Origin: Leucothrix arctica
GTDB taxonomy: Bacteria; Pseudomonadota; Gammaproteobacteria; Thiotrichales; Thiotrichaceae
Assembly (NCBI RefSeq): GCF_003172895.1
Contig: NZ_QGKL01000029.1
Location: 124,001-188,000, forward strand
Direction of reading: 5' to 3'
DNA: 64,000 bases
Shown here: positions 28,722 to 41,790 of the stretch, piece after piece
Layout: the number at the start of each line of letters is the position of its first letter
Numbering within the stretch: the stretch's first letter is position 1
Position numbers and translations under genes: made by a program
The notes under the pieces: generated by a model
Told to the model about the DNA's origin: nothing
The model's database searches: none
What the model saw: only the letters and a program-made list of their open reading frames with translations

Positions 28722-28786
28722 TTCGAGTATGTTCGAATATTTTCGTTTTAGCAATTGAATATTCGTTTTTTGTTTATTTTATTTCG
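28722..28786. promoter_or_regulatory. Candidate GlpR operator: phased TTCG repeats
   Basis: TTCG occurs at 28722, 28732, 28742, 28762 and 28783, spacings of 10, 10, 20 and 21 bases, so all lie on one face of the helix. The segment TATGTTCGAATATTTTCG at 28728-28745 resembles GlpR half-sites of other bacteria. The repeats lie between the divergent glpD and glpR genes and would serve both. Confidence 0.7.
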
Positions 28787-28865
28787 TTATGAGATATGTC
28801 AGATAAATTTGAATCAACTTTTAAAGAAATTTCAGATATGCTTGCGTGTCAAAAGGGGAAGATAC

Positions 28866-29633
28866 ATGCAGCTATCACTACGCCAGCAACAGATAATGAA
28901 TGTTGCGCGCCAAGATGGAAGAGTCACTGTAGACGGACTGGTACAGTCATTTGACGTCACACCACAGACCATTCGAAAAGATTTAAACTCACTTTGTGCC
29001 GGCAAATTATTAGTTCGGGCACATGGGGGGGCAATACTCGCATCAGGTACTGAAAACGTACAATATGAACAACGTCAGGCATTATATTCCGAAGAAAAGA
29101 AACAAATCGGTGCACTGTGTGCAGCCCAAATTCCTGACAATAGTTCGCTGTTTATTAATATTGGCACAACAACTGAAGCCGTTGCGAGTGCGCTGTTAGA
29201 GCACCATAACCTGATGGTGGTGACTAACAATCTCAACGTCGCGAACATCTTGCTACAAAACACCAGCTTTGAAATTATCATTGCAGGTGGTGTGTTGCGA
29301 CATCGTGATCGTGGTATTACGGGGGAAGCGACGGTAGACTTTATCAAGCAGTTCAAACTGGACTATGCGGTAATCGGCACATCCGCTTTAGATGAGCAAG
29401 GCGCCCTGCTCGACTTTGACTACCGTGAAGCGCGAGTCACACAAACGATTCTCAGTAATGCGCGTGAACGCTTTTTGGTGTCTGATAAAGGAAAACTAGA
29501 ACGTACTGCGCCCGTAAGAGTTGGGCATGTGTCTCAACTAACAGATGTATTTATGGATGAATGCACCTCGGACGAGCTACAAGTAGTGTGTGAACAGCAC
29601 AATGTAACTATTCACACACCTGATAAGCCTTAA
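28866..29633 (+). CDS. glpR: DeoR-family glycerol regulon repressor
   Basis: About 255 residues from the ATG at 28866, which has an AGGGGAAG ribosome-binding site and starts the typical MQLSLRQQQIMNVARQDGRV; the in-frame ATG at 28755 would add 37 residues overlapping the regulatory region. The HTH with TVDGLVQSFDVTPQTIRKDL is followed by the sugar-phosphate sensing domain (NIGTTTEAVASAL, TNNLNVAN, GITGEATVDFI, DYREARVTQTI). It probably represses the glp operon and is released by glycerol 3-phosphate. The 3' end overlaps the next convergent gene by four bases. Confidence 0.92.
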   Translation: MQLSLRQQQIMNVARQDGRVTVDGLVQSFDVTPQTIRKDLNSLCAGKLLVRAHGGAILASGTENVQYEQRQALYSEEKKQIGALCAAQIPDNSSLFINIGTTTEAVASALLEHHNLMVVTNNLNVANILLQNTSFEIIIAGGVLRHRDRGITGEATVDFIKQFKLDYAVIGTSALDEQGALLDFDYREARVTQTILSNARERFLVSDKGKLERTAPVRVGHVSQLTDVFMDECTSDELQVVCEQHNVTIHTPDKP

Positions 29634-30136
29634 AGATCGGCTACTTTACCAATATGCTTCAGTGCTGCTTTGTACCACTCTTCGATTGAAGGGTGGTCAG
29701 CCAAACCAAGCTCAGCAAACTCATCAGCTTTACTATCAACCGTCACACCCAACAACTTAAGCGCTTCGTTAACTGCACTTGGCGCGTCAGCTAGCGTTTG
29801 TTTAGGCTCAAAAATAACTTCGCCAAACTCCCAAACCATTGCTGAGTCATGACCTGTTTCACTGTCCGACTGGATATAAGCAACCTTACCCACCTGCGAC
29901 AACATATTTGCCACCCACATCGCAGACGTAGTCAGCTCTGAAAACTCTGCATGCGGTGTATCCGCTTCACCCGTCACCTCTGCCAATCGTTCACGCAACT
30001 GTGGCGTCATTGGTACTAAACCAAAGCCCTGCGACAAGCCAATCGACTTCGCTGGCGGTGGTGTTCCTTCGTTAAACCCGTGTTCAAACTCTCGAACTAC
30101 GTCTTCTATAGCAATAAATCCATGTAGTGAATGCAT
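29630..30136 (-). CDS. Uncharacterised soluble protein downstream of the ABC operon
   Basis: 168 residues from the ATG at 30136 (an in-frame ATG at 30160 is possible). No known domain recognised. It is acidic and largely helical, with no signal peptide. Notable segments are GFGLVPMTPQLRERL and SAMWVANMLSQVGKVAY, and the ending SIEEWYKAALKHIGKVADL. It lies about 80 bases past the ABC ATPase stop in the same direction, so it could be the last gene of that operon. Confidence 0.65.
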   Translation of the reverse strand: MHSLHGFIAIEDVVREFEHGFNEGTPPPAKSIGLSQGFGLVPMTPQLRERLAEVTGEADTPHAEFSELTTSAMWVANMLSQVGKVAYIQSDSETGHDSAMVWEFGEVIFEPKQTLADAPSAVNEALKLLGVTVDSKADEFAELGLADHPSIEEWYKAALKHIGKVADL

Positions 30137-36685: not shown

Positions 36686-37762
36686 ATGTTGTTTATTCCG
36701 CTCCCCTTTGTACTGACATTGCTCCTGTGCATTATTCTGTTTCGGCTCTACCAACAGCGCGAAACCTTGCCTTCTAGTCAGCTATTTTTAACGCTGATTA
36801 GCACCTATACACTTGGCACAGCATTGGTTGGTATTCGTTGGGGATACGGCATTACGGCAGTGCAACCAATCATGGCTGTATGCGCGGTGAGTTGGGCGAT
36901 TTTGGCGTGGCTGTGTTTTCGTAGTCTGACTATCGAAGGTGCTTCAATAATCTGGCGAAAGGACTACGTACATGCACTTCCTGTCGTAGCAGTCCTATTA
37001 CAAATACTGCTTATGCCTGATCTGATTGATATACTCATCATCGCGACAGATGTGTTTTATGGATACCTACTGCTAAAGCTTGCACGTCAAGGCCAGAGCG
37101 CTTTAAAAACAGTTCGACTAGAACAAGTCACGACGGTGCATAAAGGCCTTTACGCTACCGCTTATATATTAATGTTATTTGCAGTACTTGATGTCGTTAT
37201 CTTTATCGATATTGAAATCTTCGGCGGCAAGTACGCAGCCAGCTTAATCACCTTTGCCAATATCCCTATGATCTTTGCTTTGGGTTTTGTTGCGTCATTG
37301 GCGAGTCAAAGTCAGCCTCAAACTAGAGTAGTCGAAGCTAATGGTGAGTCGGTTTTAAAAAGTGTACCCGACCAAAGTGCAACGAAGGAAACTGAAAGAG
37401 CAGACACTGACCTTAGTACTGATAAAGCACTGGTTGAACGCCTCGATAAATTTATGCGTGAGACAGAACTGTACAAAGACGTTGATCTCAACCTCGCCAA
37501 ACTAGCGCGTAAGTTTGGCATCCCTACCCGCCAAATATCCGCAGCGGTTAACAAGGTCAAAAGTATCAATGTCTCGCAGTATGTCAATGCTTACCGAGTG
37601 CAGGCACTTTGTGAGTTACTGGAGTCGAGTGATCAACCGATTATTCAACTGCAACTAGAGACAGGCTTCCAAACTAAGTCTAACTGCAACCGTGAGTTTT
37701 TAAGAGTGACGGGACTTAGCCCAAGTCAGTGGCGAGAGCAAAAGCGTCAACCAACTAGCTAA
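36686..37762 (+). CDS. AraC-family regulator with N-terminal membrane domain
   Basis: 358 residues. The first 210 residues hold about six to seven hydrophobic segments, and the last 100 form the two-HTH AraC domain (LARKFGIPTRQISAAVNKV, then IIQLQLETGFQTKSNCNREF and TGLSPSQWRE). A charged linker joins them. Membrane-bound AraC proteins of this design sense a signal at the inner membrane and act directly on DNA. It is divergent from the hydrolase gene, which it likely controls. Confidence 0.88.
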   Translation: MLFIPLPFVLTLLLCIILFRLYQQRETLPSSQLFLTLISTYTLGTALVGIRWGYGITAVQPIMAVCAVSWAILAWLCFRSLTIEGASIIWRKDYVHALPVVAVLLQILLMPDLIDILIIATDVFYGYLLLKLARQGQSALKTVRLEQVTTVHKGLYATAYILMLFAVLDVVIFIDIEIFGGKYAASLITFANIPMIFALGFVASLASQSQPQTRVVEANGESVLKSVPDQSATKETERADTDLSTDKALVERLDKFMRETELYKDVDLNLAKLARKFGIPTRQISAAVNKVKSINVSQYVNAYRVQALCELLESSDQPIIQLQLETGFQTKSNCNREFLRVTGLSPSQWREQKRQPTS

Positions 37763-37825
37763 CTCACTTAAAGTGGGAGGTGCTTTTACTATCAAAGTAT
37801 TGACGTTAAAAATTGCATGCACCCT

Positions 37826-37876
37826 TTAACATAGTTAACATTTTTATTGACATAATTGATAACAAAAACATACCCT
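37826..37876 (+). promoter_or_regulatory. Candidate promoter and repeat operator of the STAND-HipA module
   Basis: TTAACAT is directly repeated at 37826-37832 and 37835-37841, just upstream of TTGACA at 37847-37852, which is followed after 18 bases by TACCCT. The promoter is weak at the -10. The repeats are a possible autoregulatory site for the HTH domain, as HipB-type proteins bind their own promoter; inference only. Confidence 0.35.
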
Positions 37877-37906
37877 GATCGTTCAATCCAACGATAGGCA
37901 AAACCT

Positions 37907-40483
37907 GTGTCCACCACCATTGAATCTGAACTCTTTATCAAAAGAGTCAAACAGCTATTACAAAACAAACGTTGGACACAATCAGAGTTAGCGCAAAAAA
38001 CAGGATTGTCGACCCCACAGCTTTCCCGCTTGTTGTCTGGTAAAAACAAGCGCGTCCAGCAAACAACTATCGATAAGATACTGCATGCGTTTGAGCTGAC
38101 ACAGGCGCAATTCTTTGAGCAGAGCACAATGCCCGAAGTCAGCCCACCCACGTTAAATACCAACAGCATGTACTCCGACCGCTTACCCACGGTTTCAGGC
38201 AAGTTTATTGGCCGCGAGCGCGAGCTAGCTGTTTTAGATGATGCCTTAGCAAATCCTGAAATCAATATCCTGCAATTCATCGCACCCGGTGGTACGGGCA
38301 AAACAAAGCTTCTGCGCCATTGGTTAAATAACTCACGCGACAAAGCGCCCGTGATGATTGCATGGTCGTTTTATTCGCAAGGTGCGACGGTTAATAAACA
38401 GCTTTCGACTAGCCCGTTTTTCAAACACGCTTTAAACCTGCTGCAAGCAGATCAGCACACTTTCTCTTCGGACGAAGAGAAAGGCGATTATCTTGCGAAT
38501 TTATTGCGTGCTCGCCAGTGTTTATTAGTCCTCGATGGGCTAGAGCCAATGCAACACGCTGACCCTGCTAACCGTGGCGAGCTTAAAGATCGCGCACTCA
38601 GTCGTTTACTGAAAAATTTAGCAGGTCAGCCGAGCAAGCTGTGCATCATCACTAGCCGTATCGCGGTGTATGAACTAAGCGATCGCAACTCGGTGCTGTC
38701 ATATAACCTGCAAAATCTTGAAACTTCTGACGGTATTAACTTGCTGGAGTCGCTAGGTGTTAAAGGCCCACGCCAAGCTATTCGCCAAGCGGTTATCGAC
38801 TACGCTGGACATGCGTTAGCGTTGAGCTTATTGGGAAACCTACTCAGACTGCGTTACCAAGGTAATATTAATAAGCGAAATGTGCTGCCGCCGCTGATTC
38901 AGGGCAGCCGAGATAAGAACAGCCGCCATGCATTCAAAGTCATGCAAGCGTATCAAGACTGGTTTGCTGGCACAGCAGAACTCTCATTACTGTATCTGCT
39001 AGGCATGTTCGATCATCCAGTGACGCTGTCTGCGCTAGAGGCCCTTTGGCAGGCAAACATTAAAGACCTCACTGAGGGTATTTCTGAAGAAGATTGGTAT
39101 CAAGCGATTGATAGTCTGCGTAATGATCATCACATACTCACCCAAGCTGAGTTTGACGATGACCATCACAACTTCCAATCGCTAGACTGTCATCCTCTGA
39201 TACGTGAGTACTTTGGCCAGCAGTTAGCGAGCAAGCAACCAGAGACGTGGAAGCAAGCGCACCAATGCCTCTATGAATACTACAAAGCAGTCCCTGATAA
39301 AGAGCAGCCGGATACCCTAGAAGAAATGCAGCCGCTGTTCCATGCGGTTAAACATGGGTGTACCGCAGGGCTTTACGAAGAAACTTTTGAGGATGTTTAT
39401 TGGCAGCGTATTTGCCGACAAAACGAGTTATACCTCACGGTTAAACTGGGTGCCTTTGGCGACGAGTTAGCGACGATTGCCAACTTCTTTGCAGTGCCTT
39501 GGGATACTTTTAAAGGTGACTTGCCCGATGAATATACCTACTTCTTGACGTCATCCGCAGCGATGAGTTTGAAGGCGCTAGGGCGTATTAAAGAAGCACA
39601 TCGCCCTGCAAAAAAACTCCTTTCTATTATCGTGAGTTTTGGACAGTGGGAAGCCGCAGCAACCTACTCGGAAGACCTTTGCCAACTTCAGCTCACATTA
39701 GGCAACCTGAGTGAGGCATTAGAAACTGCCAAGCTTGGTTTGAGCTATGCAGACAACTCAGAAGATACGCTTAAAAAGGCGATATCCCGCGCTGTTTATG
39801 CCCGCGCATTATACCAAACGGGTGATACTGAAGGTGCATTGGACTATTACCAAGCCTGTAAAACCATTCAACAAGAAGGCAATTTAGAAGCGCCCTACCT
39901 TGATGCGGTTTGGGGATATGGTGAGTTGTTGATTGAGCAAGAACAGTTGGATGATGCGACACAAAGCACGCTTGAAATTAACCGATGGTTTACTCAAGCC
40001 AAGCCGTCGTCAGCCTCTTTATTACCGTTGACGCTTAATACGTTAAACCTTGTGAGAGGCGCATTGGCACAAGGGGAGTACTCGCTTGAGGCTATAGATC
40101 AAACAGTTAACTCCCTCCGTAACTTAGGTCGCAAAGACTTATTGCCGCTAGGACTTATTGCCCGTGCTGCTCTATGTCGTGAAACTGGCTTATTTGTGCA
40201 AGCGCATCAGGACTTGGCGGAAGCATTTGATATTGCATCACCCTCAGGTATGCGGCTTTATTTAACTGACTATCATCTAGCCATGGCGAAGTTGCTATTA
40301 AAGCAGTGGCAGCAACAACTTCTGGATGATACCACCCAAGATAAAATCCAAGATCATATCGCTCAAGCAACCGTGCTGATTGATGAGACTGGCTACCACC
40401 GACGAGATAATAAGGTGGCTGCACTCATCGGCCCAAGCGCTATTAAGCCCGAAGCACAACAAGAGTGGAGCGAAGAATGGTGA
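37907..40483 (+). CDS. HTH-STAND NTPase-TPR protein paired with HipA
   Basis: 858 residues with a GTG start; no nearer ATG exists before residue 75. Order: an Xre-type HTH at about 10-70 (WTQSELAQKTGLSTPQLSRL), a STAND/NB-ARC-like NTPase at about 95-440 and helical TPR-like repeats to the end. The NTPase has FIGRERELAVLDDAL, Walker A GGTGKTKL with Lys near 132, Walker B CLLVLDGLE near 205-213, a TSR sensor near 249-251, a GHALALSLLG segment and HPLIREYF near 429. Its stop overlaps the hipA start. In HipBA systems this place belongs to HipB, a small HTH antitoxin, so this may be a HipB-like repressor fused to a signal-gated switch. That function is inference. Base composition does not obviously differ from its neighbours. 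Confidence 0.85.
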   Translation: MSTTIESELFIKRVKQLLQNKRWTQSELAQKTGLSTPQLSRLLSGKNKRVQQTTIDKILHAFELTQAQFFEQSTMPEVSPPTLNTNSMYSDRLPTVSGKFIGRERELAVLDDALANPEINILQFIAPGGTGKTKLLRHWLNNSRDKAPVMIAWSFYSQGATVNKQLSTSPFFKHALNLLQADQHTFSSDEEKGDYLANLLRARQCLLVLDGLEPMQHADPANRGELKDRALSRLLKNLAGQPSKLCIITSRIAVYELSDRNSVLSYNLQNLETSDGINLLESLGVKGPRQAIRQAVIDYAGHALALSLLGNLLRLRYQGNINKRNVLPPLIQGSRDKNSRHAFKVMQAYQDWFAGTAELSLLYLLGMFDHPVTLSALEALWQANIKDLTEGISEEDWYQAIDSLRNDHHILTQAEFDDDHHNFQSLDCHPLIREYFGQQLASKQPETWKQAHQCLYEYYKAVPDKEQPDTLEEMQPLFHAVKHGCTAGLYEETFEDVYWQRICRQNELYLTVKLGAFGDELATIANFFAVPWDTFKGDLPDEYTYFLTSSAAMSLKALGRIKEAHRPAKKLLSIIVSFGQWEAAATYSEDLCQLQLTLGNLSEALETAKLGLSYADNSEDTLKKAISRAVYARALYQTGDTEGALDYYQACKTIQQEGNLEAPYLDAVWGYGELLIEQEQLDDATQSTLEINRWFTQAKPSSASLLPLTLNTLNLVRGALAQGEYSLEAIDQTVNSLRNLGRKDLLPLGLIARAALCRETGLFVQAHQDLAEAFDIASPSGMRLYLTDYHLAMAKLLLKQWQQQLLDDTTQDKIQDHIAQATVLIDETGYHRRDNKVAALIGPSAIKPEAQQEWSEEW

Positions 40484-41790
40484 AAACACTAACGGTTTTA
40501 ATGAATGGTTTGTTGATCGGTCACCTTCGCAAATCTAGCGAAGGCGGTATGTCTTTTCGCTATGATGAGTCATGGCTAACCACGCCCGACAAGCGCCCTA
40601 TTTCAATGCATTTACCGACTGAGCCAGCGCTGCACACGGGCGATCAGGTGTATAATTTTTTCGACAATTTACTGCCTGACAACCCTGCGATTCGAACGCA
40701 TATACAACAACGCTTTGCTGTACGCAGTAACCACCCTTTTGATTTATTAGAAGCGATTGGTAAAGACTGCATCGGGGCTATTCAACTGTATCGCTCAGAT
40801 GAAACGCCTCATTTATTACGCGCCATTGTCGGTACACCGCTCTCCGAAGATGACCTAAAACAGAAAGTCGCTTCAAGCAGAACCGCACCACTAGGCATGA
40901 CACCTTCACACGAAGATTTTCGAATATCATTGGCAGGTGCGCAGGATAAAACCGGTTTTCTTTGGCATGACAATCAATGGCAAACGCCCGAAGGCACAAC
41001 GCCGACCACGCATATTATTAAACTGCCGATTGGTAAGATTGACCATAACTCGATTGATCTCACCGACAGTGTTGATAATGAGTGGCTCTGTTTAAACATT
41101 TTGCGTTTATATGGATTGGACATTACCAATGCTGACCGCTTAACCATCGCCGACACTACCGTGCTGGCTGTTGAGCGCTTTGACCGTCGGCTATCCAGAG
41201 ATAAAAGCTGGATCATGCGCTTGCCGCAAGAAGACATGTGCCAAGCCCTTGGTTACTCTTCTGGGCAGAAGTATCAAGCAGATGGTGGCCCCGGCATGGT
41301 GGAAATCATGAAGCTACTTGAGCGCTCGGACAATGCTGAAAAAGATCGTCATGACTTCATGAAAATCAACTTTCTGTTTTGGTTGATGTGCGCACCTGAC
41401 GGACACGCTAAGAACTTCAGTATCTTTATACTGCAAGGCGGCAAGTTTAAAATGACACCTTTTTACGATGTGCTTTCGCTTTACCCGCTCATGGCTAACC
41501 GCCAGATCAATCAGCGTGATATCAAAATGGCGATGGGCTTAAAAGGCAGCAAGCAGTATTACAACTGGTATGGCCCAAGTCTTACTATTGATCATGTTCT
41601 CTCAACAGCAGACCAGTGCGGCTTTAGTCGCGACATCATGTATGACATTGTGAAGACGGCTTTGGCTCAGACTGAGGAAGTGATTCAAAAGGCTGAGCAA
41701 TTGATTCCGAGCGACCTTTCTCGTGACGTGAGTAACTCGATTTTTGATGGTATGCGCACGACAGCAGCGCGACTAGAAAAGCAGTTATAG
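40477..41790 (+). CDS. hipA: HipA-family serine/threonine kinase toxin, full length
   Basis: 437 residues from the ATG at 40477, overlapping the upstream stop as ATGGTGA with GGAG seven bases before. The HipA N-terminal subdomain covers about 1-110. The P-loop segment RISLAGAQDKTG carries Ser151, matching the E. coli autophosphorylation Ser150. Lys182 in HIIKLP, Asp308 in APDGHAKNFS and Asp331 in PFYDVLS correspond to the ATP, catalytic and magnesium residues. The kinase therefore looks active. E. coli HipA phosphorylates glutamyl-tRNA synthetase and induces dormancy; the target here is unknown. Its partner is the HTH-STAND protein; no HipB-size gene is nearby. Confidence 0.9.
   Translation: MVKTLTVLMNGLLIGHLRKSSEGGMSFRYDESWLTTPDKRPISMHLPTEPALHTGDQVYNFFDNLLPDNPAIRTHIQQRFAVRSNHPFDLLEAIGKDCIGAIQLYRSDETPHLLRAIVGTPLSEDDLKQKVASSRTAPLGMTPSHEDFRISLAGAQDKTGFLWHDNQWQTPEGTTPTTHIIKLPIGKIDHNSIDLTDSVDNEWLCLNILRLYGLDITNADRLTIADTTVLAVERFDRRLSRDKSWIMRLPQEDMCQALGYSSGQKYQADGGPGMVEIMKLLERSDNAEKDRHDFMKINFLFWLMCAPDGHAKNFSIFILQGGKFKMTPFYDVLSLYPLMANRQINQRDIKMAMGLKGSKQYYNWYGPSLTIDHVLSTADQCGFSRDIMYDIVKTALAQTEEVIQKAEQLIPSDLSRDVSNSIFDGMRTTAARLEKQL

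Follow-up and report, generated by a model that had tools for sequence, protein, structure and literature searches.

A candidate hipBA-derived module in Leucothrix arctica with an HTH-STAND-TPR protein in the place of HipB

The hipBA type II toxin-antitoxin system of Escherichia coli, with its clade I HipA, joins a full-length HipA kinase to a small upstream partner, HipB (Gerdes et al. 2021, PMC8262856). Ten gene organisations were distinguished among 1,239 surveyed Hip kinases, none of them with an NTPase partner (PMC8262856). Other Hip kinases depart from hipBA: in HipBST and the split HipAs the restraint of the kinase is altered, and in the antiphage system HipAD (DS-6; PMC13092281), a precedent for a defensive role of HipA kinases against phages, a HipA-family kinase has a DUF3037/DUF1829 partner. 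Surveys of STAND conflict systems describe proteins of the TIR/SEFIR-STAND-TPR kind, with HipA unmentioned (PMC7159879, PMC8195603). We analysed a 64-kb stretch (the window) of the 4.75-Mb genome, of Thiotrichales type, of Leucothrix arctica, in which a gene for a helix-turn-helix (HTH)-STAND-TPR protein is directly followed by hipA. We give about an even chance to the reading that this module derives from hipBA, that an NLR-like receptor which keeps the tail of HipB has taken the place of the small antitoxin, and that a sensed signal would release HipA.

As in hipBA, the locus has a full-length HipA with its key residues, preceded by an overlapping gene for an HTH-bearing partner that ends in the conserved C-terminal Trp. 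Unlike in hipBA, that partner has 858 aa instead of about 85 aa, with STAND and TPR regions and an HTH unlike that of HipB, and no small HipB (about 80-110 aa, HipB-type HTH) is found directly upstream of hipA. HipBST and the split HipAs differ in that the HipA here has its own N-subdomain (Couple_hipA, residues 5-104) and there is no HipS, and HipAD differs by its partner, which Pfam does not find at this locus. The STAND protein has the tripartite layout and the core, at 35-50% identity, of the TIR/SEFIR-STAND-TPR proteins of Thiotrichales and their relatives, but it carries an HTH in the effector slot and a HipB tail after the TPR region, and its candidate effector is a separate kinase. With the Avs and other bacterial NLR-like antiphage STAND proteins it shares the fold class, but it has no nuclease or protease effector and lies in no defence island, and PADLOC returned no Avs match for it, giving weak HTH matches only. 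An earlier sequence-only reading of this DNA knew of no described system with this layout, and we likewise found none that combines STAND, NLR, Avs or NB-ARC with HipA in the literature searched, most subscription papers being beyond reach. The module is a novel combination joining two known kinds, hipBA and STAND receptors.

The hipA ATG (40477-40479) precedes the TGA stop of the STAND gene (40481-40483), giving an overlap of 7 nt (ATGGTGA, context gAATGGTGA), and a GGAG lies 5 nt before this ATG, inside the codons for the tail of the STAND protein. The sequence-only reading had claimed this overlap, and also an 858-residue protein with an Xre-like HTH, a STAND NTPase and a TPR-like C-terminus; both are borne out, the latter by the open reading frame (ORF), by Pfam and by the predicted model. 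Pfam places HTH_26 at residues 14-71 (E 1e-10), AAA_16/NB-ARC at 99-223 and a MalT-like TPR region at 557-724. Across 28 homologues there is no variation in Walker A (GGTGKT, K132), Walker B (LLVLDG, D210), the HPL motif and further STAND positions. A structure search with the predicted single-chain model (mean pLDDT 83, pTM 0.75) gave as best match 6mfv, a STAND protein with a TPR sensor, and then Apaf-1, CED-4, Avs3 and plant NLRs. The protein has the NTPase with Walker A/B, the winged helix and the C-terminal repeats of the STAND (NLR-like) receptors; in place of their N-terminal effector in the same chain it carries the HTH, the candidate effector HipA being encoded in trans.

The link to HipB lies in the C-terminal end of the protein, IGPSAIKPEAQQEWSEEW, to be compared with that of E. 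coli HipB, AKNASPESTEQQNLEW. The last Trp of E. coli HipB is described as universally conserved and seated in a surface pocket of HipA, and the last 16 residues as a Lon degron (PMC3376134; PMC10627512). The relatives of the window protein stop 9-27 residues past the last core helix (TGYHRRD...) on unrelated letters, and a terminal Trp is found in none of the intact STAND-TPR relatives without HipA. The partners of 65 related HipAs are small HipBs in 64 cases, and 51 of the 65 end in Trp, 15 of these as W-x-E-E-W and one as EWSEEW. When 369 gammaproteobacterial genomes were searched for the DNA pattern of W-x-E-E-W followed by a stop, it turned up, among ORFs of real length, in three settings only: HipBs whose gene immediately precedes hipA, one unrelated ORF of 186 aa, and the window protein. 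Across these genomes, a true C-terminal W-x-E-E-W is essentially a signature of a HipB directly upstream of HipA. The same class-wide search rules out chance as the source of the tail. A tail forced by the overlap with the hipA ATG is an insufficient explanation, because most WxEEW hipBA junctions have no such overlap. Across hipBA loci (L111-L147, L198-L224), the type of HipB tail (WxEEW, other Trp, EDIF/TEY) tracks the HipA tree, which suggests that the tail co-evolves with HipA and is not merely a degron.

Descent of the HTH from HipB can be ruled out. A profile built from 20 HipBs scored 9.8 bits on the window HTH and 14.3 bits on that of its closest HTH-bearing relative, L002, and the conserved SxFEN segment is absent from the window HTH. 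The best fit is Pfam HTH_26 (Cro/C1), and the top solved-structure match is E. coli HipB, a weak one. What has been kept of HipB is thus the tail and not the DNA-binding body, and the earlier proposal that the HTH part restrains HipA is unsupported as it was worded. The broader idea of a fused antitoxin fared better: the STAND gene sits in the place of hipB, no HipB-like ORF beyond it scored in the 64-kb window (no HipB search was made elsewhere in the genome), and the tail is of HipB type. Together these three observations argue for a fused antitoxin more than for juxtaposition.

HipA matches E. coli HipA (2wiu_A) over its full length (E 1e-105), with Couple_hipA followed by HipA_C. The Ser of the Gly-rich loop and the catalytic Lys, Asp and Asp are all intact, at exactly the positions that the sequence-only reading had given (Ser151, Lys182, Asp308 and Asp331). 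No second HipA-like place was found in the genome at E<=1e-3. The window HipA groups among the HipAs whose partners have a Trp tail (28-row group, 92/89), beside a group that includes WxEEW members, and it keeps 8/9 of the residues that separate these from HipAs of the non-Trp kind; its branch is long (0.84 vs a median of 0.31). Two other loci with unusual HipA or HipB proteins were noted. In L129 (G346:C2) a 42%-identical HipA at 28766-30058 is preceded by a HipB-like partner of 268 aa, which combines an HTH of HipB type with an extension of about 190 residues that replaces the Trp tail, another non-standard HipB. In L024 (G009:C35, 1489-2627) a HipA ORF without the N-terminal subdomain (306 aa) overlaps a normal HipB ending in EQEW, and this is probably a decayed hipBA.

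The core of the STAND protein (residues about 76-845) is 35-50% identical to about 45 ORFs in Thiotrichales, with fewer elsewhere; a core match of any quality occurs in 33/63 genomes of the order, 19/369 of the class and 22/339 of the phylum. Among 28 aligned family members TIR_2 is found at the N-terminus in 18 and a SEFIR match in 11, and other N-termini are alpha/beta-hydrolase-like (L091, L100, L057), ParA-like (L023) or membrane-anchored (L103, L109, L013, L014). An HTH in this position occurs only in the window protein and in L002. To judge from these alignments, the N-terminal effector slot of the family is exchanged. One contig (G007:C42:36000-54435; L107, L009, L023) carries at least five adjoining STAND-TPR paralogues with differing N-termini, of SEFIR/TIR types and one ParA-like (KGGVGRS), an apparent effector-swapping cluster.

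L002 is 67% identical to the window protein over residues 1-436 and 57% identical over residues 1-75, which include the HTH. At the coding level synonymous sites between the two are saturated (pS 0.84 vs pN 0.22). Upstream of both start codons, 37 bp away in the window, lies a promoter-like element, GTTAACATTTTTATTGACATAATTGATAACAAAAAC, which holds TTGACA, a -35-like hexamer, and an imperfect 8+12+8 inverted repeat (37841-37868). The best upstream 40-mer comparison with L002 gave 34/40 identities, against at most 25/40 in shuffles, and the element is present in a single copy in each of the two genomes with up to 3 mismatches allowed. These features fit a putative operator for self-regulation by the HTH common to the window protein and L002, and the perfect repeat nearer the start codon is a possible second operator (Table 1).

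Table 1. Coordinates of the module and its features within the window
Feature	Position	Strand	Remarks
HTH-STAND-TPR protein, candidate sensor-antitoxin	37907..40483	+	858 aa, GTG start
Cro/C1-type HTH, residues 13-71	37943..38119	+	generic Xre type, not HipB type; conserved in L002
STAND NTPase with winged-helix region, residues about 96-436	38192..39214	+	Walker A K132, Walker B D210, HPL motif 429-431
TPR-type helical repeats, residues about 541-841, presumed sensor	39527..40429	+	Pfam, predicted model, structure matches
HipB-type C-terminal tail, residues 842-858	40430..40480	+	ends WSEEW-COOH; disordered in predicted model
HipA Ser/Thr kinase	40477..41790	+	437 aa; ATG inside last codons of STAND gene
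Promoter/operator-like element GTTAACATTTTTATTGACATAATTGATAACAAAAAC	37834..37869	+	33/36 identical to L002 2602-2637
Perfect 6+6 inverted repeat ATCGTT-CAATCC-AACGAT	37878..37895		just before start codon; not conserved in L002

The fusion and the intact state of its parts can be read from the sequence; from E. coli HipBA and from STAND biology we infer a complex with HipA, repression, a trigger, release, toxicity and a target as follows, with phage defence as a possible outcome. A STAND-TPR protein of the family with TIR or other effectors would have gained an N-terminal HTH and a C-terminal HipB end (W-x-E-E-W). At rest the protein, bound to ADP, would use its HTH to repress its own promoter and its HipB tail to hold HipA. 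A signal reaching the TPR region would make the STAND domain exchange nucleotide and oligomerise, which would free or expose HipA and lift repression. Freed HipA would then phosphorylate its target, which in E. coli is glutamyl-tRNA synthetase, and halt translation and growth. If the tail is as dispensable here as is reported for E. coli, it would make the receptor labile instead of holding HipA, and HipA would be released when a trigger causes the receptor to be lost. That the antitoxin itself is the NLR-like receptor, caging HipA through a transplanted HipB tail and freeing it on sensing an invader or stress, with a dormancy toxin thereby turned into the effector, in trans, of a switch of the immune-receptor type, is a tentative proposal to which we give rather less than an even chance.

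Several observations weigh against a hipBA-derived sensor module. For E. coli HipB it is reported that HipA binding does not need the tail or Trp88 and that they serve as a Lon degron (PMC3376134), so that the tail alone may not cage HipA, and the large contact between the bodies of HipB and HipA known from E. coli is probably absent here, since the HTH is not HipB-like. The codons for EEW may be kept in part as the ribosome-binding sequence of hipA. The pair has been seen intact once: no second HTH-STAND/HipA pair was found in the order (63 genomes), the class (369) or the phylum (339), nor in plasmids, phages or viral contigs, the class and phylum searches scoring only the two best candidates per genome, such that an HTH paralogue could be missed. 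The contig of L002, the one relative with the HTH, ends at residue 436, mid-gene, before the place expected for hipA, so that L002 speaks neither for nor against the conservation of the pair as neighbours, on which the earlier proposal had been staked. No hipA was found in the L002 assembly (81% complete), a miss that says nothing, since this assembly lacks the second half of the STAND gene as well.

An alternative that draws on some of the same facts, and that we regard as unlikely though worth weighing, is that the STAND protein is a ligand-controlled transcription switch of the MalT/AfsR kind acting on the hipA promoter and not a direct antitoxin; HipA would be made only with the ligand present, and the tail would be a remnant of the 3' end of hipB, or else a degron. 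The generic HTH, a STAND-TPR arrangement as in MalT and AfsR, the conserved and unique promoter element just upstream of the STAND gene and the dispensability of the E. coli tail (PMC3376134) all agree with such a switch. It sits poorly with the place of hipA, in the same operon behind the regulator and translationally overlapped, so that both proteins would always be made together; unbound HipA would moreover be toxic at basal expression, and the C-terminal motif of partner HipBs is preserved exactly in the tail.

We consider improbable an account by which recombination into hipB placed the HTH-STAND gene before hipA, the two proteins do not cooperate, and the hipB 3' end is kept solely as carrier of the hipA ribosome-binding site and start. 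The GGAG within the tail codons, the single instance of the pair and the long HipA branch speak for this account, but the terminal Trp codon is also kept although it follows the ribosome-binding site, neither ORF is broken, and HipA retains all catalytic and Trp-clade residues, which is hard to explain without restraint if the kinase is toxic. We think it very unlikely that an unlinked HipB restrains HipA while the STAND gene encodes an independent defence receptor with an HTH output domain. An HTH is known as an N-terminal module in STAND conflict systems (PMC7159879), but this would leave the HipB-type tail unexplained, the genome has one HipA only, and the 64 kb searched for HipB hold no other HipB-like ORF.

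The surroundings of the module consist of genes for an AraC-type regulator, an alpha/beta hydrolase, a LysR-MFS pair, ABC transporters and an aminotransferase. The module does not lie in a defence island: ten neighbours, of transport and metabolic kinds, gave no specific defence match and ABC-ATPase cross-hits only. The window contains no Rfam matches and no tRNAs, and the GC content of the locus is unremarkable. The AraC-type regulator gene (36686-37762), whose long N-terminal part looks membrane-spanning, ends just upstream of the module and is separated from it by a terminator-like stem (37763-37777). The LysR neighbour was not found in the six other genomes of the genus, and an empty site could therefore not be shown.

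How HipA is released in nature is unsettled, and a receptor that occupies the antitoxin seat and keeps the tail of HipB would supply the kinase with a defined trigger. If the hipBA-derived reading is true, the question of HipA release would become testable in one protein. The retention of the WxEEW tail where the rest of HipB is lost bears on whether the tail has a role beyond serving Lon. The effectors of STAND immune-type receptors would, on the same condition, be swappable for a toxin acting in trans, and the module would join persistence toxins to bacterial NLR-like immunity.

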